A DNA stretch of 31,853 nucleotides, taken from the IMG/VR virus record IMGVR_UViG_3300005529_000334, positions 1 through 31,853 of that record; one strand, written 5' to 3'. This stretch comes from a virus. Positions 1-31,853 of this stretch are shown in pieces. Below the pieces are notes generated by a model. The model made no database searches. It was not told the origin of the DNA and saw only the letters and a program-made list of their open reading frames with translations. The position numbers and the translations under genes were made by a program. Within the stretch, counting starts at the first letter, position 1. Each line of letters opens with the position of its first letter.

Positions 1-2
1 TC

Positions 3-236
3 CAGACGCCAGAGGCACAACGCCTGATAGAGCGCCAGAAGCGGATGCGCGAGTTGGCGCACTTCCGCAAGACGTTCCTGAGGCCCGCGAATGACTGGTG
101 CATTGACTGCGGCGCAAAGGTGGAGAAGCACGAGCGCGGCTACATTGTCTGGGACGGAGACAGGCGCGAATACCGCAGGCAATGTGGCAAGTGTCGTGAC
201 CGCGAAGGATGCGGCGGCGCAGAAGCTCTAGCGTAA
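3..236 (+). CDS. Partial small zinc-binding protein (5' end outside window)
   Basis: The reading frame is open from the left edge and ends at TAA 234-236, so the true start probably lies outside; an internal ATG at 45 would give 63 residues. The visible part is basic, with two cysteine pairs, CIDC and CGKC, separated by about 28 residues. That spacing is typical of a small zinc ribbon. Proteins of this kind in phages usually bind nucleic acid or act as adaptors, but no specific function can be read here. It belongs with the other small Cys-pair proteins found beside the terminase. Confidence 0.55.
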   Translation, partial: QTPEAQRLIERQKRMRELAHFRKTFLRPANDWCIDCGAKVEKHERGYIVWDGDRREYRRQCGKCRDREGCGGAEALA

Positions 237-335
237 GTGCTCCATCCCAGCCTGCTCCAACCTGACCGACAGGGATGCACTGCCGGTTTCACCAGCCATC
301 TCTGTGGGATGCGCTCGCATGTGTTTTTGAGAGCG

Positions 336-593
336 ATGCGTGCTTGCGAGCAGCACTGTGAGTTCATGCGCTGCACAGCGCCATGCTCCGATCCAAGCGG
401 GCATCGTAGTGGGCACCTCTGCACGTGGCACAGACAGGGGCCAATGCGTACCTGCTCCTGTGACTACTGCACGCGAGTGTGGGAGCAGGATGTGGCGGAG
501 CATGCGCGGATCACAGGACATGTGCATGTACGTGATGACCACGCAGCCAGCCTGGCGACCGAGGCAGCCGCAAACCGGGCAGGAGGGGCTTGA
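336..593 (+). CDS. Cys/His-rich small hypothetical protein
   Basis: An 85-residue frame rich in Cys and His. It contains CEQHC near the N-terminus and, later, CDYC followed by two histidines at C2H2-like spacing (C-x2-C-x10-H-x5-H), so zinc binding is plausible. The start is uncertain: ATG 336 has only a close GAGAG upstream, and the same frame is open to ATG 309 and GTG 237. Codon use is less convincing than in neighbouring genes, and the region from 237 to 335 holds nothing else I can support. It could be a spurious frame. Confidence 0.35.
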   Translation: MRACEQHCEFMRCTAPCSDPSGHRSGHLCTWHRQGPMRTCSCDYCTRVWEQDVAEHARITGHVHVRDDHAASLATEAAANRAGGA

Positions 594-653
594 GGACTCC
601 GGCGCTCCCTTCACGAACAATTTCTCCAATTCAGAATCCAGGCGAGGTTGAAC

Positions 654-839
654 ATGGCCCACCAGTTAAGCGATGCGTTCAAAAACGCCCACGGTCAGCT
701 ACACAAACAGATAAAGGTGAAGCAGGGAGCGAAAATCCCCAAAGCCAAGTTGCTGGCCGCCGTCAAAGGCAAATACGGCCCCAAGGCCAAACAGCGTGCC
801 CTGCCCGTGCTTAACATGCAGGGGGCGCGACAGTCCTAA
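654..839 (+). CDS. Small basic hypothetical protein
   Basis: A 61-residue lysine-rich protein starting at ATG 654 behind an AGGCGAGG ribosome-binding site (about 641-648). It reads MAHQLSDAFKNAHGQL and then a strongly basic stretch with many Lys, ending MQGARQS. The charge suggests nucleic-acid binding, but no family is recognised. It is followed after 19 bases by another small gene, so the two are probably co-transcribed. Confidence 0.55.
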   Translation: MAHQLSDAFKNAHGQLHKQIKVKQGAKIPKAKLLAAVKGKYGPKAKQRALPVLNMQGARQS

Positions 840-858
840 TCCCGGAGGAAAAACAAAA

Positions 859-1083
859 ATGTTGGTTGAGCACATTCGCCAGGCGGTAGACGAAATTGAA
901 ATCACCGGCCTCCGCAGCCCGCATTTGGAGGCTGCACTGGAACACCTGAGAGCGGCGGAAGCTGTGGCCTCCAGCCAGCGCGAGGTAGAAGTCGCGACTG
1001 CTCAGCAGGCAAGCCAGCCCCAAGGCAAAGATTCCGGCAGCGACAAAGACAAGTCGGAGGGCGTAACGGATGCGACGGTATAG
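859..1083 (+). CDS. Small hypothetical protein with acidic disordered tail
   Basis: A 74-residue protein. ATG 859 is preceded by a strong GGAGG (844-848). The first half (MLVEHIRQAVDEIEITGL, then LEAALEHLRAAEAV) is predicted helical. The C-terminal third is rich in Ser, Asp, Lys and Gln and looks disordered. Its end overlaps the start of the metallophosphoesterase gene by 14 bases, implying translational coupling. No family recognised. Confidence 0.6.
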   Translation: MLVEHIRQAVDEIEITGLRSPHLEAALEHLRAAEAVASSQREVEVATAQQASQPQGKDSGSDKDKSEGVTDATV

Positions 1084-1927
1084 AGTGCTGGTCGTTTCCG
1101 ATATCCACGTAGGCTCCATCTTCGGCCTGCTCCCGCCAGGTTTTGTCCGCTCCGACAATGCCACGGTTTCTCTGAACCCAGGCCAGGAGCATTTGTGGGG
1201 GTGCTGGGATGATCTTCGCCAGCGCGTCCGCGATGTGGACGTGGTGGTGGTCAACGGGGACGTGATAGACGGCCCGCAACCAGCGCAGCGTGGAACCGAG
1301 CTATCGCTACCCATCCTGGGAGACCAGGCAGAGGCAGCCATAGAAACCCTGCGCCTGCTCAAGAAATCAACCGGCACGGCTCCCTGGTACTTCATCCAGG
1401 GTACGGAATATCATGATTGTCGCGCCGGACGCTCCGCCGAGGAAGTGGCCCGCGCCCTGGACGCCACGCCATACACCGGCCTGGGAACCGGCAGATACAG
1501 CCGCGAGGTGCTGGACTTGGACATAGACGGCGTGGTTATCAACTTCGCCCACGGCATCTCCGTGGCTACCGGCTTCTACCGCGCCACTCCCGCAGACCGG
1601 GAAGGCATCTGGTCGGCGCTTGCCGGAAAGGACGGCAAAATGCCCAAGGCCGACGCGGTGGTTCGCTCCCACGCGCACAGTTTTGTGCATGTGGAACACG
1701 CCAGCAAGCACATCGTCATCAGTCCATGCTGGCAGCTTCAGACCCGCTACCAGAGGAAAAACAGTGTGTACAGGATGATTCCCGACATCGGCGCTATGGT
1801 GCTGGAGGTCACTCCAGATGCCAAGCGTCAGGGGTTTGATCCTGTACACGTTCAGAAAATCCTGTACCCGCTTCCGGCGGTGAAGCCGACCAAGCTGGAA
1901 CTCCCATCAGGCGGCTCCAGGATGTAA
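1070..1927 (+). CDS. Calcineurin-like metallophosphoesterase
   Basis: A 285-residue protein of the calcineurin-like phosphoesterase fold, which uses a two-metal centre to hydrolyse phosphomono- or diesters. Motifs visible in order: DIHVG (D11, H13), GDVIDG (63-68), GTEYHD (about 111-116, in the place of the usual GNH motif), FAHG (H161) and SHAHSF (H201, H203). Start ATG 1070 has GGAGG about 11 bases upstream and overlaps the preceding gene. Phage members are often found among accessory genes near the terminase. The substrate is unknown; nucleotide or RNA processing are both possible. Confidence 0.85.
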   Translation: MRRYRVLVVSDIHVGSIFGLLPPGFVRSDNATVSLNPGQEHLWGCWDDLRQRVRDVDVVVVNGDVIDGPQPAQRGTELSLPILGDQAEAAIETLRLLKKSTGTAPWYFIQGTEYHDCRAGRSAEEVARALDATPYTGLGTGRYSREVLDLDIDGVVINFAHGISVATGFYRATPADREGIWSALAGKDGKMPKADAVVRSHAHSFVHVEHASKHIVISPCWQLQTRYQRKNSVYRMIPDIGAMVLEVTPDAKRQGFDPVHVQKILYPLPAVKPTKLELPSGGSRM

Positions 1928-1962
1928 CAAAACGTCGGTAACTCACGACAATTACCAACAAA

Positions 1963-2199
1963 ATGAAATACACGGCTCCCGTTGCTCCCGATGACATATG
2001 GGAGCAGTTGGAAAGGGTGCGCCGGGAGGCGCTGGAACAGGAGCGCCCGCAGGACTCGTTCACCGTCTTGGAATACGCCGAACGCTTCGGCCTGCCAGAG
2101 CGAACAGCCTATGCCCAAGTGAAAAAACTCCTGGCGAAGGGGCGGATCGAGCTTGCGGGCAGTTTCGGGCATCAGCGGTACTACCGGCTGAAATCATGA
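1963..2199 (+). CDS. Small winged-helix DNA-binding protein
   Basis: A 78-residue protein. Residues about 33-62 (FTVLEYAERFGLPERTAY, then AQVKKLLAKGRIEL) fit a helix-turn-helix, and the following HQRYYRL strand fits a wing, so a winged-helix DNA-binding domain is likely. No clear Shine-Dalgarno precedes ATG 1963. The 35-base spacer before it contains GGTAA and TTACC arms 10 bases apart, which could be an operator or leader hairpin. Its stop overlaps the next start (ATGA). It may be a small transcriptional regulator or a terminase-small-subunit-like DNA-recognition protein; position upstream of the large terminase makes the latter worth considering. Confidence 0.6.
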   Translation: MKYTAPVAPDDIWEQLERVRREALEQERPQDSFTVLEYAERFGLPERTAYAQVKKLLAKGRIELAGSFGHQRYYRLKS

Positions 2200-2492
2200 T
2201 CTGGGTGCTGTGGGCTATTGCGCTGATCGCGCAGCAGGCGACGCAGACGATTCACACGCGGGCCAAGGCGATGACCAACCTGCGCTACACGGCAGTCGCC
2301 GGGGCGCTGAGTCACCTGAGTTGGATTCTTTCCAACTTCATCATGGTGGACAAAATCGTAACCGCCCAGCACAGCAGCGACCTGCCCCTGGCTGCGTTCG
2401 TCGTTGTGTTCTACGTCCTTTGGGCGGACGCCGGAGGCGTTCTGGCGCAGTGGCTTGCCATGAACGTTCTGGAAAAGCGCATTCGGTTATGA
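2196..2492 (+). CDS. Small integral membrane protein
   Basis: A 98-residue protein starting at ATG 2196, which overlaps the preceding stop by four bases (ATGA). It shows at least three hydrophobic stretches: WVLWAIALIAQQ at the N-terminus, a middle helix around LSHLSWILSNFIMV, and LAAFVVVFYVLWADAGGVLAQWLA near the C-terminus. The topology suggests a polytopic inner-membrane protein. Function is not recognised; a holin-like role is possible, but a better holin candidate lies in the lysis cassette at 27840. Confidence 0.65.
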   Translation: MIWVLWAIALIAQQATQTIHTRAKAMTNLRYTAVAGALSHLSWILSNFIMVDKIVTAQHSSDLPLAAFVVVFYVLWADAGGVLAQWLAMNVLEKRIRL

Positions 2493-2896
2493 CTGACAGG
2501 GAGACACTGGAGGCCCGCAGAATGCGCGGTATTGGTGGTGCGCCAACCAGGGCGACCACGCTTCCTGATGGCGCAAAGCGGAAGGAGTTTCCGGTCGCCA
2601 GCGGCGTTCTGGATTACTTTCCCGACGCGCTGGTTGCGGTTGCAGAGGTCAGCTATCGCGGTAATCAACAGCACAACCCAGGCCAGCCGATCCACTGGGC
2701 GCGGGACAAGTCCACGGATGAAGCCGATACCATGATCCGCCACTTCTTGCAGCGCGGCCTGCGCGATACGGATGGAATCCGGCACTCGGCAAAGATGGCA
2801 TGGCGGGCGCTGGCGATTCTTCAGAAAGAAATAGAGGCCGAACAAGACCAGGCGATTCTTCACCAAGAGATCGAGGCGGAGCAGGGTTGTGGCTGA
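2489..2896 (+). CDS. dATP/dGTP diphosphohydrolase-like domain protein (DUF5664 type)
   Basis: A 135-residue protein starting at ATG 2489 with an ATGA overlap. The core KEFPVASGVLDYFPDALVAV, then GNQQHNPGQPIHWARDKS, then DTDGIRHSAKMAWRALAILQ matches my memory of the phage domain annotated as dATP/dGTP diphosphohydrolase N-terminal (DUF5664). This family is related to MazZ of Z-genome phages, which removes pyrophosphate from dGTP/dATP. Here there is no PurZ or polymerase in view, so modified-DNA synthesis cannot be claimed. It probably trims the purine dNTP pool. The C-terminus has an imperfect duplication (KEIEAEQDQAIL, then HQEIEAEQ). Confidence 0.65.
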   Translation: MTDRETLEARRMRGIGGAPTRATTLPDGAKRKEFPVASGVLDYFPDALVAVAEVSYRGNQQHNPGQPIHWARDKSTDEADTMIRHFLQRGLRDTDGIRHSAKMAWRALAILQKEIEAEQDQAILHQEIEAEQGCG

Positions 2897-3080
2897 TATG
2901 GGCTTTCTACCGGACGACCTCGACATGGAGCCAGGCGACACGACACTAGGGGTGATCTGGCCCAGCGACCAGAGGCGCTGCGTTTGCAGATATGCGCGGA
3001 ATCATAGATGGCGAGTTAACGCTGGAAAAAGCACTAGCCAACCTTCTGCCCAAACAAAAGGAGTTTCTTCGCGCCCCTGA
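2889..3080 (+). CDS. Possible small protein overlapping the terminase start
   Basis: A 63-residue frame from GTG 2889 (or ATG 2898), preceded by GGCGGAGCAGGG. It begins MADMGFLPDDLDMEPGDTTL and runs 89 bases into the terminase gene in another frame. The N-terminal half, which lies in otherwise unoccupied sequence, looks protein-like; the C-terminal part is probably only the shadow of the terminase. It could couple translation to the terminase, whose own ATG lacks a clear ribosome-binding site. Doubtful. Confidence 0.3.
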   Translation: MADMGFLPDDLDMEPGDTTLGVIWPSDQRRCVCRYARNHRWRVNAGKSTSQPSAQTKGVSSRP

Positions 3081-4473
3081 GCGCTACGTCGCCTACATCG
3101 GCGGCGAGGGTTCTGGCAAGACTGTGGCTCTATGCCTGGCAGCAATCATGAACGGTCATATGAACCCTGGCGGCATGAGTCTGATCGGTCGCGCCACGAT
3201 TCCGGCGCTGAAGGTTACCACTCGCAAGACGTTCCTGGAACTGTTCCCGCATGAGTGGTGCGCGGACTGGAAGGACACGCAGCCAACCGCTGGCGGAATG
3301 GTGGTTCACAAGAACGGACATGAATTCCATTTCGTCCACCTGGACATGGACGATGCGGCGGTTCGCTCCCACATCCGCTCCATGAACCTGTCGCATGGCT
3401 ACCTGGACGAGGGCAGCGAACTGAGCGAGGACGCCTTCCGGGTTGTAACAGGGCGACTTCGCCGGAAAGGGGTCAATCGCCGCCTGCTCAGGGTATGCGG
3501 CAACCCTGGCGGCCAGGATTGGCAGTGGCGCACGTTTTTCGATGAGAAGCGCCCGGCCAGGCTGAAGCGGATTACACGCGGCATCCTGGCTCCATCAACC
3601 GAGAACTACCACCTGCCGAAGGAGTACATAGAGGACAGGCTCTGCATATATCCTCCAGACTGGCAGGAACGGTTCATCTACGGATCGTTCGCGGACTTCT
3701 CGGACAAAATCTACAAGGAACTCAGCCGCGACCTGCACACCTGGGAGTGCGCTGGAGGCGCACGGTACGAGGTGTTCGGCGGACACGACCATCCGCCGGA
3801 TAACTGGCCGGTGATCGTGGGTATAGATATCGGCGGCGGCGCTGAGGGCGACCCCTGGGCGCTGGTGTTCATCGCCGTGCAGCCGGAGACCGGCTTTCTT
3901 TACCAGTACGGCGAGGTTTACGGAACCGGCATCCTGGTTCGCAAGATAGCCGATGAATACTTTGACCGGCTGGGTAATCACCCGCTGGACGGGGCGGCAT
4001 ACGACTGGGAGAACAAAGTTGCTGGTCTGGAATTGAACGCCGAAGGCGTGCCATGTGCTCCGGCGAACAAGGATTGGAGAGCGGGGGTATTCAAGGTCGC
4101 GCAGTATCTTCACCCAGACCCGCGTCTGACGCACCCGTTCACCGGGAAAAAGAATTCGCCGCGCTACTTCGTCTGCCGCTACTGCTGCCCAAACACCTGG
4201 CGCGAGTTGGTTGCCTACTCCTGGGCAAAAGACAGGGCGGGAAATCCAACCGGCAAGCCGGTTGGCAAGGACGATCACACCTGCGACGCAGTTCGTTACG
4301 CGATTCACACCTTCAGGCCGGAGCCGCATCAACTGAAGCCAAAGCCGATTTGGGACAACCCCGGCCTGGACATGCTCTCGCGCATGTTCTGGCGCGACGT
4401 GACGCGGGCGCAGGAGCGGCGGGAGGAGCGCCGCAACCGGCCAGTTTTCGGATATAGAGCGAGGTTGTTCTGA
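2992..4473 (+). CDS. terL: Terminase large subunit
   Basis: A 493-residue DNA-packaging motor. Walker A is GGEGSGKT (37-44), Walker B is GYLDE (D139, E140), and a coupling motif is VCGNPGG (168-174). The C-terminal RuvC-like nuclease is marked by VGIDIGGG (D279), AYDWE (D338) and DDHTCDAVRY (D432). It cuts concatemers and pumps DNA through the portal into the prohead. In its frame the only upstream stop is at 2953, so ATG 2992 is the first start. The frame also has a Cys-rich patch CRYCC near 395-399, unusual but not obviously functional. Portal follows about 1.7 kb downstream after many small genes. Confidence 0.95.
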   Translation: MRGIIDGELTLEKALANLLPKQKEFLRAPERYVAYIGGEGSGKTVALCLAAIMNGHMNPGGMSLIGRATIPALKVTTRKTFLELFPHEWCADWKDTQPTAGGMVVHKNGHEFHFVHLDMDDAAVRSHIRSMNLSHGYLDEGSELSEDAFRVVTGRLRRKGVNRRLLRVCGNPGGQDWQWRTFFDEKRPARLKRITRGILAPSTENYHLPKEYIEDRLCIYPPDWQERFIYGSFADFSDKIYKELSRDLHTWECAGGARYEVFGGHDHPPDNWPVIVGIDIGGGAEGDPWALVFIAVQPETGFLYQYGEVYGTGILVRKIADEYFDRLGNHPLDGAAYDWENKVAGLELNAEGVPCAPANKDWRAGVFKVAQYLHPDPRLTHPFTGKKNSPRYFVCRYCCPNTWRELVAYSWAKDRAGNPTGKPVGKDDHTCDAVRYAIHTFRPEPHQLKPKPIWDNPGLDMLSRMFWRDVTRAQERREERRNRPVFGYRARLF

Positions 4474-4484
4474 CGCCTGTAGTC

Positions 4485-4658
4485 ATGGGTTCGCCAGCGA
4501 ATCTGGCGAGTGTCACCTACATCTTCCGAGCCTGGGTGCCAGGCTGGTTGCGCCGCGTTCTACTGCGCCTGTTTCTCGAACCAGCGCCGGATCGCGGTTA
4601 CGAGGCCGGATACCAGCAGGGGCTGGCAGACGCCAGGGCGGAGATGTCGGGAAGCTAG
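4485..4658 (+). CDS. Small basic/amphipathic hypothetical protein
   Basis: A 57-residue frame between the terminase and the next zinc protein. It begins MGSPANLASVTYIF, has a hydrophobic-basic stretch (VPGWLRRVLLRLFLEP), and ends in GYEAGYQQGLADARAEM, a Gly/Tyr-Ala-Gly pattern often seen in small phage proteins. The N-terminal half could sit at the membrane. The coding case is position: it fills the gap exactly and stays in an intact frame. Function unknown. Confidence 0.5.
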   Translation: MGSPANLASVTYIFRAWVPGWLRRVLLRLFLEPAPDRGYEAGYQQGLADARAEMSGS

Positions 4659-4661
4659 CCG

Positions 4662-4904
4662 TTGCGGGGTATGCAGTACGAGTACCGACACCACACCGAG
4701 GCCAAGAGCGACATTTCAATCTGCGCCGCTGCCGGGTGCCCAAGGCCAAGGGCGGGATTCTCGCGGTTCTGTTCCAGCAGGTGCAGGAACCGGGAAGCCT
4801 GCCGCCGATACTACTGGCGCAACCCGGAGGCGCAGCGCAAGCGGAAGCTGGACTACTACCACCGGCGGAAGCGGAGGATGAATGCCAGTAGAAAGGTTCG
4901 TTAG
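4662..4904 (+). CDS. Small arginine-rich zinc-finger protein
   Basis: An 80-residue protein if read from TTG 4662 (GGAAG seven bases upstream), or 77 from ATG 4671. It contains C-x4-C and C-x3-C pairs (CAAAGC, later CSSRC) followed by a highly basic tail (RRYYWRNPEAQRKRKLDYYH, then RRKRR). The FSRFCSSRCR sequence resembles the treble-clef/zinc-ribbon piece of phage HNH-like DNA-binding proteins, without an HNH motif. DNA or RNA binding is likely, function unknown. It overlaps the next gene by 23 bases. Confidence 0.6.
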   Translation: MRGMQYEYRHHTEAKSDISICAAAGCPRPRAGFSRFCSSRCRNREACRRYYWRNPEAQRKRKLDYYHRRKRRMNASRKVR

Positions 4905-5082
4905 GTTCACCTGCGACCAGTGCGGCCAGGAGACAACCATCCCAGGCGACCGTCAGCCGACCAGGGCCGAGCAGGAGGAAGTCGAGCGAATTTTGGTCGT
5001 ATCGCAGGGAAACAGGCAATTCATCCTGTGTCGCCCGCTTTGCCTGCTCAACTTCTTCAGGCGGATTGTTGGACAACTGTAA
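4882..5082 (+). CDS. Small zinc-ribbon-like protein
   Basis: A 66-residue protein with GGAGG upstream of ATG 4882. The N-terminal CDQCG and the C-terminal CRPLC pairs, 39 residues apart, suggest a single zinc site. The intervening part is predicted helical (RAEQEEVERILVV). It overlaps the genes on either side (23 bases upstream; TAATG with the next). No named family. Confidence 0.6.
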   Translation: MPVERFVRFTCDQCGQETTIPGDRQPTRAEQEEVERILVVSQGNRQFILCRPLCLLNFFRRIVGQL

Positions 5083-5300
5083 TGGATATCCAGGCGCTAA
5101 AGGAGCAAGTCGAGCAGGAGCGCCAGGCTCTCCTGACTGCTCCATCCGTGCCAATCACGGCTGGCACGGTGACGCGATGCTCGTTCTGTGGTCGGATGTC
5201 AGCCGCGCTCGTTCGCTGCGAGACCATGGGCACAGTGGAGCGTTACTGCTGCGAGGCGTGCCATCCCGACTGCGCGGCTGGTTCGCCCTTGCCGCAATAG
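5082..5300 (+). CDS. Small zinc-ribbon-like protein
   Basis: A 72-residue protein starting in a TAATG overlap at 5082. After an N-terminal helix (MDIQALKEQVEQERQALL) it carries CSFCG and CCEACH pairs around a short basic loop, a clear zinc-ribbon arrangement. Its TAG stop (5298-5300) lies inside the first copy of a 31-bp tandem duplication. This is the third consecutive Cys-pair protein downstream of the terminase; together they may form a DNA- or protein-binding set. Confidence 0.6.
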   Translation: MDIQALKEQVEQERQALLTAPSVPITAGTVTRCSFCGRMSAALVRCETMGTVERYCCEACHPDCAAGSPLPQ

Positions 5301-5357
5301 GTAAACCAATGGTTGACAAATTCGACAATAGGTAAACCAATGGTTGACAAATTCGAC
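5296..5357 (+). repeat. 31-bp perfect tandem duplication covering a translation start
   Basis: Two identical 31-base copies (5296-5326 and 5327-5357) beginning AATAGGTAAACCAATGG. Each holds an ATG (5309 and 5340) and the codons for MVDKFD. From the first ATG only a nine-codon reading frame (MVDKFDNR, stop at 5335) is possible because 31 is not a multiple of three; the second ATG opens the real gene. So a spacer plus gene start has been duplicated, leaving a decoy start. Confidence 0.9.
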
Positions 5358-5685: not shown

Positions 5686-5698
5686 CGCTGATTAGCGT

Positions 5699-5989: not shown

Positions 5990-5991
5990 CC

Positions 5992-6132: not shown

Positions 6133-6136
6133 AGCT

Positions 6137-9570: not shown

Positions 9571-10833
9571 ATGCCTGCATTCGATCTCACTGCTGCCGAT
9601 CCGTTGATGAAGATTCACTTCAACCCACGGATCATCAAGCAATTCAACACGGCTGCGGTTCTGTTCAACCGCTTCTTCGACGGGAAAGGAATCCCGATCT
9701 CGAACCGTGGCTTGGAAATCCCGATCCACACTGGCGGGAATGGCGACATCGCCTGGTACTCCGACGGCGGCACTCTGCCTGACGGCAGCGGTCAGAACTT
9801 GGTACGCGCCTCGGTCGGCTTCTTCCAGTACGCAATGGCGGTGAAGTTCACCGGCGCTGCCCTGGACGCCGCTGGCGATGATGCGGTCACCTATGCCAAG
9901 ACCCTGGCGTTCAACATCCGCAACGCCACGGTGGATTCGATCAAGTTCCTGAACATTTACTCGTTCCTTGACGGGAGCGGGAAGCTGGCGAAGGTCAGCG
10001 CGGGCGTCACGCTGTCCACGTCCGGCAATACCACGGTGAGCGTGGACGGCAACAACGACAGCGCCCGCTATCTGCGGAATGGCATGAGGATTGATTTCCT
10101 CGCCGCTGCCGATGACAGCCTGAAGGCCTCGGCCACGATTGTCAGCGTTAACAAGATTCCTGGCGACGCCACTTCTGGCGCGACCATCACGGTCGGCCCG
10201 GCGACTTCTGCCGCTGTCCTGGCCTCCGGCGACAGCATCGTGGTCAGCGGTTCGCTGAACAAGGTGATGGCCGGTCTGAAGAACATTGTTGATGACACCG
10301 GCACCTTCCAGGGCGTCAACCGCTCGAACGTTCCCACGTTCAAGGGCAACGTAATCGCGCTGTCCGGCTCTCCGGCGCTGGCCCGCGACCACCTGCGCCG
10401 CGCTCTGGCGCTGATCCAGGTGGCGCGTGGCTCGATTGACATGAGCCAAGTTGAGATTTGGTCTCACCCGTCCCAGCTTCACTCCTATATGGACATGGGA
10501 TGGTCGCTCAAGCGGTTCCAGGGCAGCAATGCCCGCCAGCTTGATTTGGGCTACACGGCAGTCGAATGGGAGGGAGTGCCGTGGGTTATTGCCACGGACA
10601 TGCCCAAAGATCACCTGTTCGTGCTGGATCGCTCCAGCATGTTCAAGGTGCGGGCGCGTGAGTTGTCATTCGACGACCGCACCGGATCGATTCTCCGCCA
10701 AGTGCCTTCGTCCACGGCTGGCCGGTATGACGATGCCTTCGTTGCCTTCCTCCTGTTCCGGGGCAACATCGGCTCGTACTCGCCAAACAGCAACACCAAG
10801 GTTAATGGTTTGGCGGTTCCGTCCGGCTATTAA
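9571..10833 (+). CDS. Major capsid protein
   Basis: A 420-residue protein directly after the scaffold, of the right length for an HK97-fold capsid. Features that fit: an N-terminal arm, the IPIHTGGNGDIAWYSDGG segment, a long helix region around DDAVTYAKTLAFNIRNATVD, a Thr/Ser/Val-rich inserted region about residues 145-225, and a C-terminal LDRSSMFKVRARELSFDDRT segment. It forms the icosahedral shell. Ends SGY. A strong hairpin lies just downstream. Confidence 0.8.
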   Translation: MPAFDLTAADPLMKIHFNPRIIKQFNTAAVLFNRFFDGKGIPISNRGLEIPIHTGGNGDIAWYSDGGTLPDGSGQNLVRASVGFFQYAMAVKFTGAALDAAGDDAVTYAKTLAFNIRNATVDSIKFLNIYSFLDGSGKLAKVSAGVTLSTSGNTTVSVDGNNDSARYLRNGMRIDFLAAADDSLKASATIVSVNKIPGDATSGATITVGPATSAAVLASGDSIVVSGSLNKVMAGLKNIVDDTGTFQGVNRSNVPTFKGNVIALSGSPALARDHLRRALALIQVARGSIDMSQVEIWSHPSQLHSYMDMGWSLKRFQGSNARQLDLGYTAVEWEGVPWVIATDMPKDHLFVLDRSSMFKVRARELSFDDRTGSILRQVPSSTAGRYDDAFVAFLLFRGNIGSYSPNSNTKVNGLAVPSGY

Positions 10834-11492: not shown

Positions 11493-11825
11493 ATGCCATT
11501 TCCTGTAGTGCTTCGGCGCGGCATTACCGAACGCATTCTGGACACCTCCGGGCCTGCCCCAGTCACGGGCTGGCAGGCATCACTCCCGGTTGACATGGGT
11601 GGAGCACGACTGGCGTGGCAGACCAAATTTGGAAGCCCGCCGGCTTCTGTCAACGTGGTCCTCGAAGGCACCATTAATGGAACCGATTGGGCGCAGATTG
11701 ATGCCAGTACAAATGTTAACGGCGATGTGCGAATTGTTATTGTCGAAGGATTGCTGGCGGTTAGGGCTACGCTTCAAGCCCAAAGCGGCGGAAGCTGGGT
11801 GAATGTTTACGTTCGCGTGAGGTAA
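11493..11825 (+). CDS. Small structural protein, beta-rich
   Basis: A 110-residue protein, with the start three bases after the preceding stop. The sequence VVLEGTINGTDWAQIDASTN, followed by VRIVIVEGLLAVRATLQAQS, GGSWVNVYVRVR, looks like a jelly-roll or beta-sandwich domain, as in phage decoration or fibre-tip proteins. Function is inferred only from fold-like features and location. The gene holds one of the two GGWCC sites found in the window (11657). Confidence 0.5.
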   Translation: MPFPVVLRRGITERILDTSGPAPVTGWQASLPVDMGGARLAWQTKFGSPPASVNVVLEGTINGTDWAQIDASTNVNGDVRIVIVEGLLAVRATLQAQSGGSWVNVYVRVR

Positions 11826-15152: not shown

Positions 15153-16550
15153 ATGAAAAACTCTTTCTGTACATGTCTTGTACTTCTGACTGTCGCAGTT
15201 TTGGCGTTCGGACAGGGTTCCAAGCGCGAGGATGCGGCCCTGGCGGGAAGCACGCCTATTGCATATCCCCAAGTCCGCGTCTGCTCTGAGGCGGCTACGG
15301 GTACGCCGTGTGCGCCGCTGGCGACCATCTACACAGACAAGACGCTCACCACGGCCAAGCCAAACCCGTTCACCGGAGACGCCTTCGGGAACTTCGAGTT
15401 CTACGGCGCGCCGGGATGGTACATGGTGCAGGTGTCCGCGCCTGGCGTGCAGACGTACACCTACAAGGTGCTTTTGCCGCCAGATGTGGCAAATGCCACG
15501 TTCCAGACACTGAACGTGTCCGGCGTGCTGACCATTTCCGGCTCGTTCACCGCCGCCTCGTTCTCTACCAATGCGGTGAATCCCGCCACAAGCGGCACCG
15601 TAAAGCTGGCAAAGGGCGACCAGATTTGCTGGCGAAACGAGGCCAACAGCGCCAACGTCTGTATTTCAAAAAACTCCAGCGACCAGATTATTGGGGCGGT
15701 CGCTTCGACGCCGCTGATATCCAGCACGATTAATCCTGCGGTGAGCGGGCAGGTTAGGCTGGCGAAGTCGGACACGATCTGCTGGCGCAACGAAGCCAAT
15801 ACTGGCGATGTGTGCCTGAGCAAGAACACCAGCGACCAGTTGATCGGGGCAAGCGCCACTGCTCCCTTCATCACCAACAGTGCGAACCCCGCCTCCAGCG
15901 GGACCTTCCGCCTCGGCAACGCCGACCAGATTTGCTGGCGCAATGCGGCCAACACATCCGATGTATGCCTTAGCAAAAACAACCTTGATCAAATCGTCGG
16001 AGCAAACGCAACGGCTCCACTGTTAAGCCCGAAGCCAAACATTGCCGATACTGGCACGGTTCGCATGGCCCAGGACGACCAGATTTGCTGGCGCGACGAG
16101 GGCAACCTTGGAAATGTATGTCTGAGCAAAAACGACAATAACAGCATTCAGCTTCCCAATAACGGTTTTACTTTCGGCGTTGGCGGTAGTCCTGTAAGCC
16201 GCCCGCCGATTGGCCTGTGGAATCCGTTTACTACCGGAGACCTGGGTGGCACCAGCACGCTTGCTAAGTGGAAGCCGCACGTGAACGTTGCCACTGAGCG
16301 CTTTCAGGTGTGGCTTGCCACGCCGGGGGCGGGGTGCTCAACCCTGCCCGTGTTGAAGCTGAGAAACGAAACCACCTCCACCGACATTGCTTCCATCACG
16401 GTCTCGAACGGAACACAGTTTTTTGATGTCGCAGCGAATAGCGACGTGAACGCGAACGACGTTCTGTCCGTGGCGATTACGACCGCTGCCGCTGGCTGCA
16501 CCACCACTCCGCTGGCCGCCAAGGCGACTGTCGCGTTTGTAACCAGGTAA
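15153..16550 (+). CDS. Secreted/fibre-like protein with four 51-residue repeats
   Basis: A 465-residue protein with a signal peptide (MKNSFCTCLVLLTVAVLAFG, cleavage probably before QGSKRED). Residues about 30-110 form a beta-rich domain (PNPFTGDAFGNFEFYGAPGW, then YTYKVLLPPD), resembling carboxypeptidase-regulatory/Ig-like folds. Then come four repeats of exactly 51 codons from residue 143, each with DQICWRNEAN and VCLSKN. The last part (about 345-465) is beta-rich with SNGTQFFDV and Cys pairs. The arrangement suits a tail-fibre or adhesin with a repetitive shaft. Signal peptides are unusual for virion proteins; this may instead be a secreted moron product. Confidence 0.6.
   Translation: MKNSFCTCLVLLTVAVLAFGQGSKREDAALAGSTPIAYPQVRVCSEAATGTPCAPLATIYTDKTLTTAKPNPFTGDAFGNFEFYGAPGWYMVQVSAPGVQTYTYKVLLPPDVANATFQTLNVSGVLTISGSFTAASFSTNAVNPATSGTVKLAKGDQICWRNEANSANVCISKNSSDQIIGAVASTPLISSTINPAVSGQVRLAKSDTICWRNEANTGDVCLSKNTSDQLIGASATAPFITNSANPASSGTFRLGNADQICWRNAANTSDVCLSKNNLDQIVGANATAPLLSPKPNIADTGTVRMAQDDQICWRDEGNLGNVCLSKNDNNSIQLPNNGFTFGVGGSPVSRPPIGLWNPFTTGDLGGTSTLAKWKPHVNVATERFQVWLATPGAGCSTLPVLKLRNETTSTDIASITVSNGTQFFDVAANSDVNANDVLSVAITTAAAGCTTTPLAAKATVAFVTR
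15579..16190 (+). repeat. Four tandem 153-bp coding repeats
   Basis: The repeats begin at 15579, 15732, 15885 and 16038, exactly 153 bases (51 codons) apart. Protein units share NPAxSGTxRLA, DQICWRNxAN, VCLSKN and DQ-IGAxATAP. The first three are close; the fourth is diverged at its end. The two conserved Cys in each unit (CWRN, VCLSKN) could form one disulphide per repeat in the oxidising exterior. Confidence 0.85.
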
Positions 16551-22655: not shown

Positions 22656-22672
22656 GCAGAGGAAAAGTTTTA

Positions 22673-25412: not shown

Positions 25413-25417
25413 GCGCT

Positions 25418-25897: not shown

Positions 25898-25922
25898 ACA
25901 GTCAGAAGTTTGTTTTGCTAGC

Positions 25923-25949: not shown

Positions 25950-25954
25950 TGCCC

Positions 25955-26545: not shown

Positions 26546-26939
26546 GCCGTGGAACCAGGTTCCGCGTGACCCGGCGATGTCCGCCGAAACCTATCAGTTC
26601 TTGGTTTGGGTGCAGCAGTCCATTATGCAGCTGCTGAGCGCCGTTATCATTCTGCCCGCTCCAGAGATTACGACCAAGGGCCTGCACCAGGCTGTGCGGA
26701 TTGACTGGGACGAAGTTCCTGGTGCTCTCAAGTATTACATTTTCGAGAACGTGACGGCGGCGTTGCCGTCGAACCCGCTGGCTGTCATTCCCGCGAATCT
26801 GGCGCGTACCAAAAACTCTTATCTCCGCAGTGGCCTGACTGATACCAACACTCGCTATTACGCAGTTCAGGCAGTAGGGCCGAACGAGTCGAAGGGTGCT
26901 CTCAGCGCCTTCAAGACTGGATTTGCCGCAAGCATCTAG
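26529..26939 (+). CDS. Fibronectin type III-like protein
   Basis: A 136-residue protein; ATG 26529 follows AGAGGGGGCAGAG. Residues about 45-136 (APEITTKGLHQAVRIDWDEV, YYIFENV, YYAVQAVGPNESKGALS) match an FN3-like beta-sandwich, with the Trp and YY.V positions typical of the fold. The N-terminus has a helical segment (YQFLVWVQQSIMQLL). FN3 domains in phages usually sit on tails or fibres and bind surfaces. Here it precedes the lysis cassette. Confidence 0.6.
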   Translation: MPQPFRPWNQVPRDPAMSAETYQFLVWVQQSIMQLLSAVIILPAPEITTKGLHQAVRIDWDEVPGALKYYIFENVTAALPSNPLAVIPANLARTKNSYLRSGLTDTNTRYYAVQAVGPNESKGALSAFKTGFAASI

Positions 26940-27293
26940 ATGTTTGCATTCAAGAAAACCGTCGTGTCCGACGGTGCCGCTCCCCAAACCTGGTTTGCGA
27001 TGGGTGTTTTCTACGCCCTGCACTCACTACTGGCCGGAGGCAGGTTCGTAGTGACGGCTGTCAGAGACGGAAAGCACGAGCCTGGGAGCAAGCACTACAC
27101 CGGCGAAGCATTTGACATGCGGGTTTGGTATATCACGCCGGAGCAACGCGCTCGTATCGTCGAGAAGGCACGCGAATTGTTAGACCCGCTGGGCTACGAC
27201 ATCATCTCCGCTGAGACGCCCGGCCATCAGGATCACGACCATTGCGAGTTCGATCCAAAAGAGGGCGAGATATGGGTTTCTTCGGTCAACTAA
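26940..27293 (+). CDS. Endolysin, M15-type peptidase
   Basis: A 117-residue peptidoglycan peptidase. It shows the M15 zinc signature SKHYTGEAFD (S50, H52, D59) and the C-terminal HQDHDHCEFDP (H96, H99, H101) carrying the remaining ligand and catalytic residues. It would cut cross-links or stem peptides in the murein. No signal peptide is visible, so it relies on the holin for access. ATG immediately follows the preceding TAG, and the end overlaps the spanin-like gene by 22 bases. Confidence 0.8.
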   Translation: MFAFKKTVVSDGAAPQTWFAMGVFYALHSLLAGGRFVVTAVRDGKHEPGSKHYTGEAFDMRVWYITPEQRARIVEKARELLDPLGYDIISAETPGHQDHDHCEFDPKEGEIWVSSVN

Positions 27294-27862
27294 TCGAGCT
27301 TGTCAAGCCGTATCGCTTCCGCATTCTGCTTGCCCTGGTAGCGGCCCTGGTTGGGTTCACGTGGCTGTCCCACCAGATCGCCGTGGAACGCGCCGAGGCC
27401 GCCGCCGACGCGACCAAGAAGGCGCAGGACGAGGTGATCAGCTACTTGGACGAGCGCGAAAAGGAGCGCAGAGAGCAACTTGATCGAATCTTGGAGCAAC
27501 TGGAGCAGGTGAAGCGCCAGGTGCGACAGCCACGCGATATCGTGCGCGAGATACCCGCCTACATCCGCCTTCCCAAGCCGATTGAACTCCAAGGGTCACA
27601 GAATGTGCCTCCGCCGCCGATGTCGGCGGTGGTTCCACCTGAGAGCGTGAAGCCGTTGTTCGACCATCTGGTTGATTGCAGGGCGTGTGAGGTGAGGCTG
27701 GCCGAGGCCCAGCAGACGATCCGGGATGACCAGCGGCGGATGGAGGCAATGCAAAAGAAACTGGAGGCGGAGGAAAGGAAGCACAGGCTTGGATTCAAGC
27801 AGGTTTTGAAATGGCTCGTGATTGGAGGTGCAGGCGGATATGTCGCTGGCAGGATTTTTTAA
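27272..27862 (+). CDS. Spanin-like membrane protein
   Basis: A 196-residue protein from ATG 27272 (GAGGGCGAG upstream). A transmembrane segment lies at about 17-36 (FRILLALVAALVGFTWLS) and is followed by a long charged coiled coil (EVISYLDEREKERREQLDRI) in the periplasm, a Pro-rich stretch (NVPPPPMSAVVPP) and a second coil. The C-terminus is hydrophobic (VLKWLVIGGAGGYVAGRIF). The architecture resembles i-spanin (Rz), which joins inner and outer membranes at lysis. No lipoprotein o-spanin is seen; the hydrophobic C-terminus may serve as the outer anchor. Confidence 0.55.
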   Translation: MGFFGQLIELVKPYRFRILLALVAALVGFTWLSHQIAVERAEAAADATKKAQDEVISYLDEREKERREQLDRILEQLEQVKRQVRQPRDIVREIPAYIRLPKPIELQGSQNVPPPPMSAVVPPESVKPLFDHLVDCRACEVRLAEAQQTIRDDQRRMEAMQKKLEAEERKHRLGFKQVLKWLVIGGAGGYVAGRIF

Positions 27863-28139
27863 GTTCCTTGGCGGAGCGTTTTCGGAGCTTAACGGATGCC
27901 CCAGCTTCTCCAGGTTGGCGACCGGCGCGATTGTGGCCTTCTCATTGTTCTGGGTGACATGGATCGTAGTCCACAGTTCGCAGCTTCCAGACCTGAGCGA
28001 ACTGGCGTTGTTCATCACGACGCTCTATGGCACCAACAAGCTGTCGAGTGCATTCAAGGGCGCGGACAAATCAACCGTTACAAACGGAGGCACTGAACAA
28101 AATGAAAGTCGCGGCGCTCTCCCTGTTGCTGGCAATTAG
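27840..28139 (+). CDS. Holin-like protein
   Basis: A 99-residue protein. ATG 27840 has GGAGGTG (27824-27830) upstream. It resembles small phage holins with a conserved N-terminal NGCPSFSRLATG, followed by hydrophobic segments (AIVAFSLFWVTWIVV, LSELALFITTLYGTNKL) and a charged, flexible C-terminus. Holins form inner-membrane holes at a fixed time so that the endolysin reaches the murein. It overlaps neighbours on both sides, fitting a lysis cassette. Confidence 0.65.
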   Translation: MSLAGFFKFLGGAFSELNGCPSFSRLATGAIVAFSLFWVTWIVVHSSQLPDLSELALFITTLYGTNKLSSAFKGADKSTVTNGGTEQNESRGALPVAGN

Positions 28140-28821
28140 CGCCGCTGCGGGCCTGGCGCAACCTGCGCCACAGGCGGAGGAGCGGTTCATATCCGAGGTG
28201 GTTCTACCGGCTACGGTTCTCTTGTACTACCAGGGGGACGGCCAGATGATGGCCGTATGTACGGCTGTCGCCATAGACCACAAGGGCGAGACGTACACCT
28301 TCGCCACCGCCGGTCACTGCATTCGCAAAGAGCGCAAACATTACTTTGTGACCGATGATGGCGCTGGCGAGGAAAAGCAGTTCATCCGTCTGAGAAACGC
28401 TACCTGCGGGGCGGTGGATCGCGGAGATGATTTCTGCCTGCTTGAGATCAAGACCAAGCGGGAGTTCCCGCTTATCAATCTTGGCCACGACGCCACAGGC
28501 TACTCCGTGCCTGTTGTGAATGTAGCCTCGCCTGGCGGCATGGGTAAGCGCGTGTATCGCGGCTACATCGCCAGCCCCAAGCTGGATCGCCCGATGGAAG
28601 TGGAGGATGCAAGCTGGCCCGACGCCATGAGCGTGCAGATTCCGGCATACAGCGGATCGAGCGGATCAGCCGTGATCTGCCTGGAGCAGCGGGCCATCTG
28701 CGGTTTTATTGTGGGCAAGACGCCCGCCGAGGCCGTGGCCCTGCCTGTATCACGGTTCATCAGGTTCCGCGAACAAGTCGCCAGGGGGGATTACGAATGG
28801 CCGCAAAAGGCAAAGAAGTAA
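28102..28821 (+). CDS. Secreted trypsin-like serine protease
   Basis: A 239-residue protein with a Sec signal peptide (MKVAALSLLLAISAAAGLAQ). The catalytic triad of S1-type proteases is visible: TAGHC (H72), DDFCLLEI (D109 or D110) and YSGSSGSAV (S187). ATG 28102 follows CGGAGG (28085-28090). It would act outside the inner membrane. Phage trypsin-like proteases are known as secreted cargo, but one inside a lysis cassette is uncommon. It could digest envelope proteins to aid lysis or act in superinfection exclusion. Four Cys in the mature part could form disulphides. Confidence 0.7.
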   Translation: MKVAALSLLLAISAAAGLAQPAPQAEERFISEVVLPATVLLYYQGDGQMMAVCTAVAIDHKGETYTFATAGHCIRKERKHYFVTDDGAGEEKQFIRLRNATCGAVDRGDDFCLLEIKTKREFPLINLGHDATGYSVPVVNVASPGGMGKRVYRGYIASPKLDRPMEVEDASWPDAMSVQIPAYSGSSGSAVICLEQRAICGFIVGKTPAEAVALPVSRFIRFREQVARGDYEWPQKAKK

Positions 28822-29129
28822 GCCGGGCGCAACTGCGGAGCCTGGTGCGGAAGTGGCAGCGCATTCTGCGCCTCCAAGACTGGCGCGTGACCGTGGACTA
28901 TGACGGCGACATGTGGGATGACTGGGGCGAGGTAACGTGGGATATCGAGGCCAAGACCGCACACATCCGCATCAACCCAGTTTCGCCTCCAGAGGAGACC
29001 ATCATTCACGAGTTGCTGCATCTACACGCCGCACCCCTCGGCGACCTGAAGGGGTACAAGAGCGACACCCTGGAGCAGATGATAGAGCTTACCGCTGGCG
29101 CATTATATGAACTCTCCAATGGCGGATAG
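28797..29129 (+). CDS. HExxH putative metallopeptidase (SprT-like)
   Basis: A 110-residue protein carrying HELLHLH (H71, E72, H75), the zinc-metalloprotease motif, preceded by a helical domain (LVRKWQRILRLQDWRVTVDY). No signal peptide, so cytoplasmic. It resembles small phage SprT- or ImmA-like peptidases often linked to regulators. It overlaps the trypsin gene by 25 bases and meets the oppositely oriented regulator gene end to end with a 27-base overlap, hinting at linked regulation. Confidence 0.6.
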   Translation: MAAKGKEVSRAQLRSLVRKWQRILRLQDWRVTVDYDGDMWDDWGEVTWDIEAKTAHIRINPVSPPEETIIHELLHLHAAPLGDLKGYKSDTLEQMIELTAGALYELSNGG

Positions 29130-29345
29130 CAGCGGGCCAGCAACAAGAATCAACCCGGCAATTTTTGTCACATCCGCGCCGCCGCCGTTCTTGCGAATTG
29201 GGGAGATGTGCTCGGCCTCGGCCAGCTTGCGGATGGCGAGGCGTACCACCGCCGACCTGCTCAAACCCAGTTTCTCAGAGAGAAGCGCGAGATAGCGTTC
29301 CTCCGCCTGGCGAAGGTGAACGCTGGTGCTTTTCAAGTGGCGCAT
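29103..29345 (-). CDS. Ribbon-helix-helix DNA-binding protein
   Basis: An 80-residue protein on the minus strand from ATG 29345. The N-terminal STSVHLRQAEERYLALLSEK, then LGLSRSAVVRLAIRKLAEAE, fits a ribbon-helix-helix (CopG/Arc-like) fold. The C-terminus is hydrophobic (IAGLILVAGPLLSAIGEFI), which could tie the protein to the membrane, unusual for this family. It is divergent from the integrase, and palindromes lie in the shared upstream region, so it may regulate itself and the integrase. Confidence 0.6.
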   Translation of the reverse strand: MRHLKSTSVHLRQAEERYLALLSEKLGLSRSAVVRLAIRKLAEAEHISPIRKNGGGADVTKIAGLILVAGPLLSAIGEFI

Positions 29346-29409
29346 GGGTTGTTGGATGACAGCGCAAATGTCTGGCTGCGCCTTGGTTGCATTACCTTGG
29401 TACAGGGGC

Positions 29410-29448
29410 GAGTTACTACTTCTCGGTTGCTACTCATTGGTGAGTAAC
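29410..29448. promoter_or_regulatory. Operator-like palindromes between the regulator and integrase
   Basis: TACTCA-TTGG-TGAGTA (29431-29446) is a perfect inverted repeat. Nearby AGTTACT (29411-29417) and AGTAACT (29443-29449) are related palindromic heptamers. This divergent upstream region is where an operator for the ribbon-helix-helix protein would be expected. No convincing promoter boxes could be assigned. Confidence 0.45.
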
Positions 29449-29547
29449 TACGCTGCAACTTTGTCTGTGCATACTGCGTCTCTGGATAGCGCCGGGACAG
29501 AGATGATGCCGCCACTCTGTCTGGCCTTTGTAAGGAAATAATCGTAA

Positions 29548-29562
29548 GTACATTATTTGTAC
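29548..29562. promoter_or_regulatory. Palindrome near the integrase start
   Basis: GTACA-TTATT-TGTAC (29548-29562), five-base arms around a five-base spacer, 43 bases upstream of the integrase ATG (29605). Possible operator or integration-protein site. The frame also opens at TTG 29557, inside the palindrome, but that start would leave no room for a ribosome-binding site. Confidence 0.45.
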
Positions 29563-29604
29563 GGAATAGGCGTTCCTGGGGGCGCAGTGTGTATTGTTCC
29601 CTTC

Positions 29605-30744
29605 ATGGATACGCGCTGCCCCAGTTGCAATTTTCACATTAGGGTTGATGAATGGCTGACAGACAGGTGGGCCGAGTGGTTGAAGTGTATGGGTGCCGAG
29701 CCGGGAAACCCGCCCGTCAAACCAGACGAGGACGTAGGGCCAATTTGGTTGTCAGACCAGGCGGCATTCGCCAGGCTGCCGTTTCCTGTCGCGTTCTACA
29801 AATGGCTGTCGGAGCGCAAGCGACGACTTGCCGACAACACATGGCGCAGGCACCAATGGCGCTTCCGGCCCTTGTACGCCTTCTTCGGCGATAGGCCGCT
29901 GGAGACCATCACTGCGCTCGATCTGCACCAGTACCAGCACTGGCGCACCAACACCGGCTTTGTCACGGTCAAGGAAAACGGAAAGTGGGTGTCCAGGGAG
30001 GTTGCCGCCAAGACCGAGCCGGACACCATCAATCATGAACTGAGCGTAATCCAGCAACTCCTGAAGAAGGCCGGTCGCTGGCATCTGATCCGCGACCTCT
30101 ACGAGCCGCTGCCCGTTCCAAACTACGAGGTTGGCAAGGCGCTGACCGAGGAGCAGGAGAGGCGGCTGTTCGAGGTTGCTTCCAGCAATCCGCGCTGGAG
30201 GGTCGCCTATTTGGCGGCGAAGCTGACCGCACACACCACCGCTGGCCCCAGCGAGATCAAACACCTCCGTCTGCGCGATGTGGACTTGGAGCGCCGCGAG
30301 ATCACCGTCCGGGAGGGCACGAAAAATAAGTACCGCGTCCGCCTGGTTCCACTGAACGATGATGCGTACTGGGCGGCATCCCAACTGCTGGAGCGGGCCA
30401 AGGCGAAGGGGGCAAGCGACCCAGACCACTACCTGCTCCCCGGTAAGACGCGGCAGGGATACGATCCCGCCAAGCCCATGAGCGCAAGCGGCTGGCGTAC
30501 GGCCTGGCGCTCTCTCCGCCAGGCGGCAGGGATGCCGAGTCTGCGTCCCTACGACCTCCGGCACCACGCGATCACCAAACTGGCTGAAAAGCCGGAGGTT
30601 AGCGAGCAGGTGATCCAGGACATCGCCGGTCACGTCTCCCAGAGAATGCTGCGCCACTACTCGCACATCCGCATGAGGGCCAAGCGGGAGGCGCTGGAAC
30701 TGCTGTCCAGGCCGAAGGGGGGCGGAGCAGGAGCGGCTGCGTAA
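29605..30744 (+). CDS. int: Tyrosine recombinase (phage integrase)
   Basis: A 379-residue integrase from ATG 29605 (the frame continues to TTG 29557). The N-terminus has CPSC, possibly a zinc site. A SAM-like core-binding domain spans about 60-165. In the catalytic domain the ordinary pieces are K240/K242 (GTKNKYRVR, then VPL), R319 in YDLRHH, H343 in AGHVSQRM and the nucleophile Y352 in RHYSHI. The first catalytic Arg, expected in TGxRxxE, reads TTAGPSE, with Gly at that position (214). The integrase inserts phage DNA at the tRNA-Asp site 1 kb downstream. C-terminus Gly/Ala-rich. Confidence 0.85.
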   Translation: MDTRCPSCNFHIRVDEWLTDRWAEWLKCMGAEPGNPPVKPDEDVGPIWLSDQAAFARLPFPVAFYKWLSERKRRLADNTWRRHQWRFRPLYAFFGDRPLETITALDLHQYQHWRTNTGFVTVKENGKWVSREVAAKTEPDTINHELSVIQQLLKKAGRWHLIRDLYEPLPVPNYEVGKALTEEQERRLFEVASSNPRWRVAYLAAKLTAHTTAGPSEIKHLRLRDVDLERREITVREGTKNKYRVRLVPLNDDAYWAASQLLERAKAKGASDPDHYLLPGKTRQGYDPAKPMSASGWRTAWRSLRQAAGMPSLRPYDLRHHAITKLAEKPEVSEQVIQDIAGHVSQRMLRHYSHIRMRAKREALELLSRPKGGGAGAAA

Positions 30745-30837
30745 GAGAGACTTCCCATTTGAAGAAAAGGAGAGCCACTGGTGGTACGCCCATGGCGTCA
30801 GCGGCAGCATCCGGCCCGTAGCATAATCGCGAATCTT

Positions 30838-30853
30838 GTCAGGCATTCCTGAC
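30838..30853. repeat. Short inverted repeat between convergent integrase and nuclease genes
   Basis: GTCAGG-CATT-CCTGAC, a perfect six-base stem with a four-base loop, between the ends of the convergent genes at 30744 and 30891. It is followed on neither strand by a T run, so it is at best a weak terminator. The rest of 30745-30890 shows no gene. Confidence 0.4.
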
Positions 30854-30890
30854 CGCAAAATACACTATCTTCTGTATCGTGAATAGGCAT

Positions 30891-31538
30891 TCAGACCCGC
30901 TTTCTCGCAACCGATTTCTTGGTGACGTAATCGCGGATGAATTGCTGGAAAAGCCCCTCGTCCGCCAGAGTGAGCCGGGAATTACCGGGCAAGTCCTGCC
31001 AACGGGTGTCTCCATTGGAAGCCTCGATTCGATACCAGGCTCGGATTTCAACTGGGCAGCCCATGGTTTGGATAAGCTCACGGATTCTCGAACTTGAACT
31101 GTTCTCACTGTTGCTCCGGTTCTTGATTTGCAGGAGATCAACCGGGGTATTGCCTCTGAAGAAGTCAACGTCCTGAATGATGTTTCCGCAGCACCAAACC
31201 CAGCCTTGCGGTTCTAAAACGCTTGCGAGATATGCTTCAAGAAGCTCACCGACCTTGTTCTCGGCGGCCATTGATTTCCGGTGTAGCTCAGAGATTTCCC
31301 TGAGGCGGGACTTTTCGGCTCCCGCGAATGCTTCGAGCACAACGTCCACTGCCGGATCAGGGACAGTCCGCATGGGCTGGAGCGCGATCTGCTGGCATTT
31401 TTTATCGAAATGGCTTCTCAGAAGCGCCCGCAGATACTCGCGGATTTCGCGGGGCAATGTGGTCTCAGACAGTTTGATCCCGGCGCGGCGGCGGAGTGAC
31501 GCGATCCGTCCTCCAAGGAGCTTGCATAAGTCGGACAC
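30891..31538 (-). CDS. SinI-family-like type II restriction endonuclease
   Basis: A 215-residue protein on the minus strand from GTG 31538 (the frame is open further but offers no better start; no clear Shine-Dalgarno). The core AENKVGELLEAYLASVLEPQ, then DVDFFRGNTPVDLLQIKNR (D123, D125, D134, Q137, K139) and NSENSSSSRIRE matches my memory of SinI-type enzymes, a PD-(D/E)xK nuclease family. SinI cuts GGWCC. No methyltransferase gene is visible on either side. It sits between the integrase and the tRNA fragment, a usual cargo position. The family call is from recognition of motifs only. Confidence 0.7.
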   Translation of the reverse strand: MSDLCKLLGGRIASLRRRAGIKLSETTLPREIREYLRALLRSHFDKKCQQIALQPMRTVPDPAVDVVLEAFAGAEKSRLREISELHRKSMAAENKVGELLEAYLASVLEPQGWVWCCGNIIQDVDFFRGNTPVDLLQIKNRSNSENSSSSRIRELIQTMGCPVEIRAWYRIEASNGDTRWQDLPGNSRLTLADEGLFQQFIRDYVTKKSVARKRV

Positions 31539-31735
31539 TCTGCCAGTCTGAAAGAGAACAGCACTAAGTGAACACTGAATTTAACTACGGGTAATCAGAA
31601 AAAGTAACGGCGTCAGGCAACCTTTGTCTTTGGCCTGCATCAAAACATCGTGTAAGCGTTGAACGCCGGTTCAAAACGCTGCCCGAAGGCGGTTAAGCCG
31701 CTGCCTGAAGGATGGGGGCCGATGCCAGCAGCAAA
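31539..31735. other. Non-coding region next to the attachment site
   Basis: No gene is supported here. It holds inverted repeats: AGCGTT.GAAC with GTTC.AAAACGCT around 31655-31680 and GCGG-TTAAG-CCGC near 31690-31702. It also holds AAACGCTGCCC at 31674-31684, repeated at 31733-31743 at the edge of the tRNA piece. These could be integrase arm or core sites. Confidence 0.5.
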
Positions 31736-31787
31736 CGCTGCCCTGTCACGGCAGAGGCCGCGGGTTCGAGTCCCGTCGTCCCCGCCA
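31736..31787 (+). tRNA. 3' fragment of tRNA-Asp(GTC): probable attachment site (attR)
   Basis: Starts in the anticodon stem (CTGCC 31738-31742), loop CTGTCAC with anticodon GTC (31745-31747), stem GGCAG, variable loop AGGCC, T arm GCGGG-TTCGAGT-CCCGT (31760-31776), acceptor strand CGTCCCC, discriminator G and encoded CCA (31785-31787). The 5' half (acceptor and D arm) is absent, so this is not a working tRNA. A displaced 3' half with phage DNA upstream is the signature of integration into tRNA-Asp. Confidence 0.85.
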
Positions 31788-31853
31788 TGTTTTTCAGTAA
31801 CTTACCCGCCCTATTCTCGCGCCTCACCCCGAGCATCCACAAGGTGTCTTGAG
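31788..31853. other. Probable host DNA flanking the prophage
   Basis: The 66 bases after the tRNA CCA contain no gene or recognised element. If the fragment is attR, these bases belong to the host chromosome downstream of tRNA-Asp. Inference only. Confidence 0.4.

Follow-up and report, generated by a model that had tools for sequence, protein, structure and literature searches.

Results

Gene content of the phage record

The window analysed here is the whole of a 31.9 kb IMG/VR virus record (IMGVR_UViG_3300005529_000334; 31,853 nucleotides), in which terminase, capsid and tail genes are syntenic with those of related phages (Table 1). A SinI/AvaII-family nuclease gene lies between a tyrosine integrase gene and an attachment core formed by the 3′ half of a tRNA-Asp gene; ARAGORN found no complete tRNA in the record. 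A 41-base part of the core recurs without mismatch in 89 genome stretches; every one bears an Acidobacteriota title, and those named to class or below are mostly Terriglobia. The integrase together with these matches indicates that the window most likely derives from a temperate phage of Acidobacteriota, mainly Terriglobia, a host placement that reaches class level. The terminase gene lies ∼ 3 kb from the left end of the window versus ∼ 11 kb in relatives of 41–44 kb, and the record is therefore probably a fragment that lacks several kilobases present in the relatives. A gene for a trypsin-like serine protease (28027–28821; Trypsin_2, E 1e-9) is located near the integrase end of the phage, and positions 5295–5356 hold a perfect tandem duplication of 31 nt (CAATAGGTAAACCAATGGTTGACAAATTCGA).

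Table 1. Features of the window referred to in the text.
Feature	Position	Strand	Evidence or context
Terminase large subunit	2992..4473	+	PHROG 2, E 6e-40
Major capsid protein, query for sister phages	9571..10833	+	PHROG 14242, E 1e-39
GGTCC, one of two remaining GGWCC sites	11657..11661		inside ORF 11493-11825
GGACC, second remaining GGWCC site	15901..15905		inside ORF 15153-16550
Tyrosine integrase	29557..30744	+	Pfam Phage_integrase, E 3e-23
SinI/AvaII-family restriction endonuclease, 215 aa, GTG start	30891..31538	-	Pfam, PDB, alignment
Nuclease codons 1-21, proposed C′ of a C′::R fusion	31476..31538	-	start-anchored comparison
Attachment core, 3′ half of tRNA-Asp gene	31734..31788	+	identical to Terriglobia tRNA genes

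The nuclease belongs to the SinI/AvaII family

The earlier note on this DNA had described the nuclease gene as SinI-type, and profile searches bear this out: the product matches RE_SinI (PF09570) with E 6e-40 and 137 bits (cut-off 22) over profile positions 54–217 of 218, and PDB entry 6g3b, which we take to be AvaII, with E 1e-27. SinI cuts GGWCC. The site of AvaII on RNA-DNA hybrids is GG(A/U)CC (PMC9605241). The reading frame is open, and the motif VDFF...LLQIKNRSNSENSSS is conserved with the relatives; D125, Q137, K139 and the NSSS motif are invariant in the nuclease alignment (A2) and are the predicted catalytic residues. The nearest relative found, at 53% identity, is in genome G072, which shares the tRNA sequence with the window. 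No relative was found when the nuclease and integrase sequences were each used singly to scan viral contigs, and scans for promoters and terminators around the nuclease gene found nothing. AlphaFold2 models of four viral nucleases had a mean pLDDT of 50, too poor for fold comparison.

A missing methyltransferase and a controller-like start

Two features of the locus had been overlooked in the earlier note: no methyltransferase was found, and the nuclease apparently starts with a piece of a controller protein. C5 methyltransferase (PF00145) has no match in any frame of the record, itself a fragment, and the window thus does not contain the linked cognate methyltransferase that marks a complete Type II system. 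The first 20 residues after the start of the nuclease, SDLCKLLGGRIASLRRRAGI, align from the start codon with PDTKAQLGKRIACLRKNAGL, the beginning of a C-like regulator encoded beside the methyltransferase of G340 (10/20 identical, score 41). When start codons in the collected loci were scored against the G340 regulator in this anchored fashion, the highest of 117,023 (G340 gene excluded) were that of the G323 C gene (37) and one more (36), a ranking that is not a clean probability because the test was devised after the resemblance had been seen. Within the window the nuclease gene scores 41 and the next best start codon 19. The resemblance stood out only when sequences were aligned from the start codon: a helix-turn-helix at the N-terminus of the nuclease is not detected by Pfam, and local alignment to the C protein of G323 without anchoring is not outstanding (fifth entry among 8678 ORFs, with the gene itself first). 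In G323 the genes run R, vsr, M, C, and R, vsr and C share a strand. From this order, a deletion reaching from inside C to inside R would yield the fusion, and the controller-like start suggests that such an event joined C′ to R and removed the methyltransferase.

GGWCC is nearly absent from the window

GGWCC occurs exactly twice in the window (Table 1), at the two places that the earlier note had reported. Its estimate that tens to about a hundred sites should be expected holds as well, the computed values being 98 from base composition, 53.1 from a maximal-order Markov model and 55.3 ± 6.1 from codon-preserving shuffles of 31 genes (minimum 31 in 1000 shuffles). GGAC, which had been put at well over one hundred occurrences with C following once, is present 144 times, and the next base is C in one case. 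No two of the 1024 five-mers fall further below the Markov expectation than GGACC (z -8.1) and GGTCC (z -4.7). The control site GGSCC is near expectation by the same model (78 observed versus 84.5 expected) and shows a mild deficit in the codon-preserving shuffles (68 versus 92.4). These whole-window counts, which the earlier note had proposed, identify GGWCC as depleted beyond composition and codon use, the mark of restriction-site avoidance.

We also compared codons that carry a site in non-depleted relatives and encode the same residues in the window. Here the window retains 0/36 GGWCC sites, 12/37 GGSCC sites and 35/70 CCWGG sites (GGWCC versus GGSCC: Fisher p 0.0002, sites from several relatives not being independent). 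Since GGWCC was lost at codons for identical residues, the loss acts on the DNA and not on the protein; it is synonymous. Neither remaining site overlaps CCWGG, so protection through such an overlap was rejected. The remaining GGACC sits in one of four copies of an 81-nt repeat that recurs at a spacing of exactly 153 nt (window 15594–16133) in the same ORF.

GGWCC is the most strongly avoided site in the window, although not the sole one. Observed over expected counts are 0/31 for GGCGCC, 1/28 for GCCGGC, 1/21 for CGGCCG and 3/22 for CCGCGG, and palindromic six-mers as a class reach 0.27 of expectation. GGWCC is therefore one member of a panel of avoided palindromes.

Several sister phages without a detectable nuclease are equally depleted

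The capsid protein retrieved 42 viral loci in 41 records, many of which are fragments; genome contigs searched with the capsid alignment gave no relative. An RE_SinI gene was not detected in any of the 41 records (because many are fragments, a nuclease may sit outside them), and two of the 41 have partial C5 methyltransferase matches. Several sisters are as poor in GGWCC as the window (observed/expected 1/33 in L014, 2/31 in L020 and 1/13 in L004), and so are two longer stretches, G012b (3/58) and G018 (2/40), neither with a detectable nuclease or C5 methyltransferase. Depleted phages are scattered over the capsid tree: L020 and L042 have almost identical capsids, yet GGWCC stands at 0.07 versus 0.33 of expectation. 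The depleted sisters also avoid the same palindromes as the window, and the stronger the depletion of palindromes, the stronger, on the whole, that of GGWCC (Spearman 0.56). Scattered depletion with parallel palindrome avoidance is the pattern expected from changing exposure to several Type II systems. As sisters without the nuclease are equally depleted, ordinary bacterial restriction is the likely cause.

The earlier note had concluded from the match between avoidance and nuclease specificity that the phage evolved under this very restriction activity. One half of that conclusion can be kept, namely that the phage plausibly evolved under GGWCC restriction, most likely from bacterial systems rather than from its own gene. 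The tie to the encoded nuclease is not supported in view of G012b and G018, the scattered tree and the parallel avoidance of palindromes.

Two further observations were made in the sister set. GATC is nearly eliminated in L014 (1/87), L020 (7/80) and L005 (10/88), the window having 132/165. The viral record G012 (78.7 kb; L141-L144) consists of two related phages, with two terminases and two capsid genes, which differ in GGWCC (20/55 versus 3/58).

Other phages with the nuclease

An alignment-based scan with the nuclease family returned four further viral records. An adjacent methyltransferase accompanies the nuclease in two of them, G482 and G483, and also in Streptococcus phage YS162, and these three phages retain 0.41–0.43 of expected GGWCC (YS162: first 50 kb). 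G480 is a 48.7 kb fragment of a T4-like phage unrelated to the window, with a baseplate-like protein that resembles those of 140–160 kb myophages and the nuclease gene at positions 41770–42393 (L205:6351-6974); the same protein occurs in a shorter record, G481. Neither a C5 nor an N4/N6 methyltransferase was found in the 48.7 kb of G480, where GGWCC is absent (0/30 expected). GGCC is likewise absent (0/72) and CCWGG nearly so (4/60), so that here too GGWCC shares its avoidance with other sites. The window and G480, the two carriers in which no methyltransferase was detected, are thus free or nearly free of GGWCC.

SinI-type systems in Terriglobia

RE_SinI was found in 1/50 and 2/399 genomes of the group (3 in ∼ 450 Terriglobia). 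All three have an adjacent C5 methyltransferase, and two of the three a vsr gene too. G255, a member of the Terriglobia with nuclease and methyltransferase (L139, L191-L196), has 9 GGWCC sites over 97 kb against 124 expected, with GGSCC at 0.91. Because a carrier of the complete system is itself nearly free of GGWCC, this sequence is, by family membership and by the purging in G255, very probably the target of the nuclease family here. GGWCC is slightly low in G072 (0.69) and G323 (0.85), values within the control range of 0.65–0.98; hosts have ∼ 0.82 of expected GGWCC. With RE_SinI rare in the sampled Terriglobia, the selecting systems are only loosely indicated, and GGWCC may also be cut by nucleases of other families.

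In Enterococcus faecium, plasmid pHLSA carries a SinI-family nuclease gene beside a Type I system (L150:3725-4510), with no C5 methyltransferase annotated within ∼ 4 kb in an incomplete annotation. Genes related to it are present on 93 Enterococcus plasmid records.

Discussion

The depletion of GGWCC, the panel of avoided palindromes and the synonymous nature of the loss are direct observations, from which we infer the selecting agent. We think it likely, if well short of certain, that GGWCC avoidance in this temperate phage of Terriglobia was driven by its hosts and that its nuclease has apparently lost the methyltransferase. Type II systems met in Terriglobia hosts, SinI/AvaII-type GGWCC systems included, would drive the avoidance, and the encoded nuclease would be a cargo gene rather than the main driver of the loss. 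Judging from the nuclease N-terminus and the gene order in G323, a deletion in a C-M-vsr-R locus would have joined the first ∼ 20 C codons to the nuclease and removed the methyltransferase and vsr. With two GGWCC sites left, the nuclease gene would do little harm to the DNA of the phage itself; a lysogen could carry it only if it were silent or inactive, or if a methyltransferase from another source gave protection. Several points speak against this reading: RE_SinI is rare in the Terriglobia sampled, the fragmentary sister records may have a nuclease beyond their ends, the C′ resemblance was seen before it was put to the test, such complete elimination is seldom found in temperate phages (PMC6286503), and L002, the nearest capsid relative, is not depleted (27/37).

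We regard it as unlikely that the nuclease is instead active without a methyltransferase and cuts host or competitor DNA in the manner of PacI, the purged site being the sole protection of the phage, a state that would have arisen independently in a Terriglobia temperate phage and a T4-like myophage. The conserved motif, the open frame and the methyltransferase not found in the record agree with such an enzyme; the pairing of the window with G480, when set against carriers that have a methyltransferase and more GGWCC, fits immunity by site loss, although these are two cases and both are fragments. PacI provides a precedent as an active solitary restriction endonuclease (Ershova et al., 2012; PMC3488263). 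Sister phages are equally depleted without the gene, however, two sites remain in the window, and lysogens would need protection in hosts that keep most of their GGWCC. Similarly unlikely is a split restriction-modification system, in which the methyltransferase would be encoded by the host or by the stretch of phage genome that the record lacks, and the phage would shield its lysogens by restricting rivals. The several kilobases probably missing from the record leave room for such a gene, G482, G483 and YS162 carry both enzymes, and distant nuclease/methyltransferase pairs are known (PMC3488263). In the complete relatives examined, though, the two genes are adjacent, whereas the window nuclease is flanked by the integrase gene and the attachment core, and the C′-like start suggests that the methyltransferase was deleted. 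An artefact of composition or codon usage, or deamination of methylated sites, can account for the depletion only with very low probability: the window is poor in palindromes generally and the codon test gives a slight shortage of GGSCC, but the codon-preserving shuffles, the contrast between W and S sites and the failure to keep any of 36 sites at identical residues all argue otherwise. Deamination was rejected as a cause since its products are not enriched (GGATC 0.66 and GGTTC 1.12 of expectation).

The comparison with known systems places host-driven avoidance by a phage with an unpartnered nuclease as follows. Over residues 34–206 the window nuclease belongs to the same family as SinI/AvaII (PF09570; PDB 6g3b, 6s48, 6s58) with the motif conserved, and GGWCC is likely also its site. 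It differs, as far as its sequence tells, in having no adjacent methyltransferase and an N-terminus replaced by a C-protein-like start. YS162, G482 and G483 likewise carry a SinI-family nuclease as phage or prophage cargo, directly adjoining the integrase in G482, but have kept the adjacent C5 methyltransferase and ∼ 42% of expected GGWCC. The likeness to PacI lies in a nuclease with no methyltransferase found and a genome nearly devoid of its site; PacI, however, is a bacterial enzyme of established activity, whereas the window gene is known from sequence, lies in a phage fragment and coexists with two sites. Restriction-site avoidance by phages is documented, with elimination less often seen in temperate ones (Rusinov et al., 2018; PMC6286503). 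The window resembles those cases in that an orthodox Type II site is nearly eliminated together with other palindromes, and departs from them in that the phage is temperate and carries a nuclease gene for the same site.

Avoided sites are usually taken to reflect restriction by hosts. In the present case the avoiding phage also encodes a nuclease of the same specificity family, with no methyltransferase found to protect it, and another phage fragment, unrelated to this one, combines the two in the same way. The unusual part is thus the unpartnered nuclease, apparently the remnant of a restriction system. Should the enzymes be active, the loss of sites would make the phage immune to its own weapon; should they be inactive, the case would show that relics of restriction systems can survive after their sites have disappeared. 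Since sisters without the gene show the same depletion, a single genome is a poor guide to cause.
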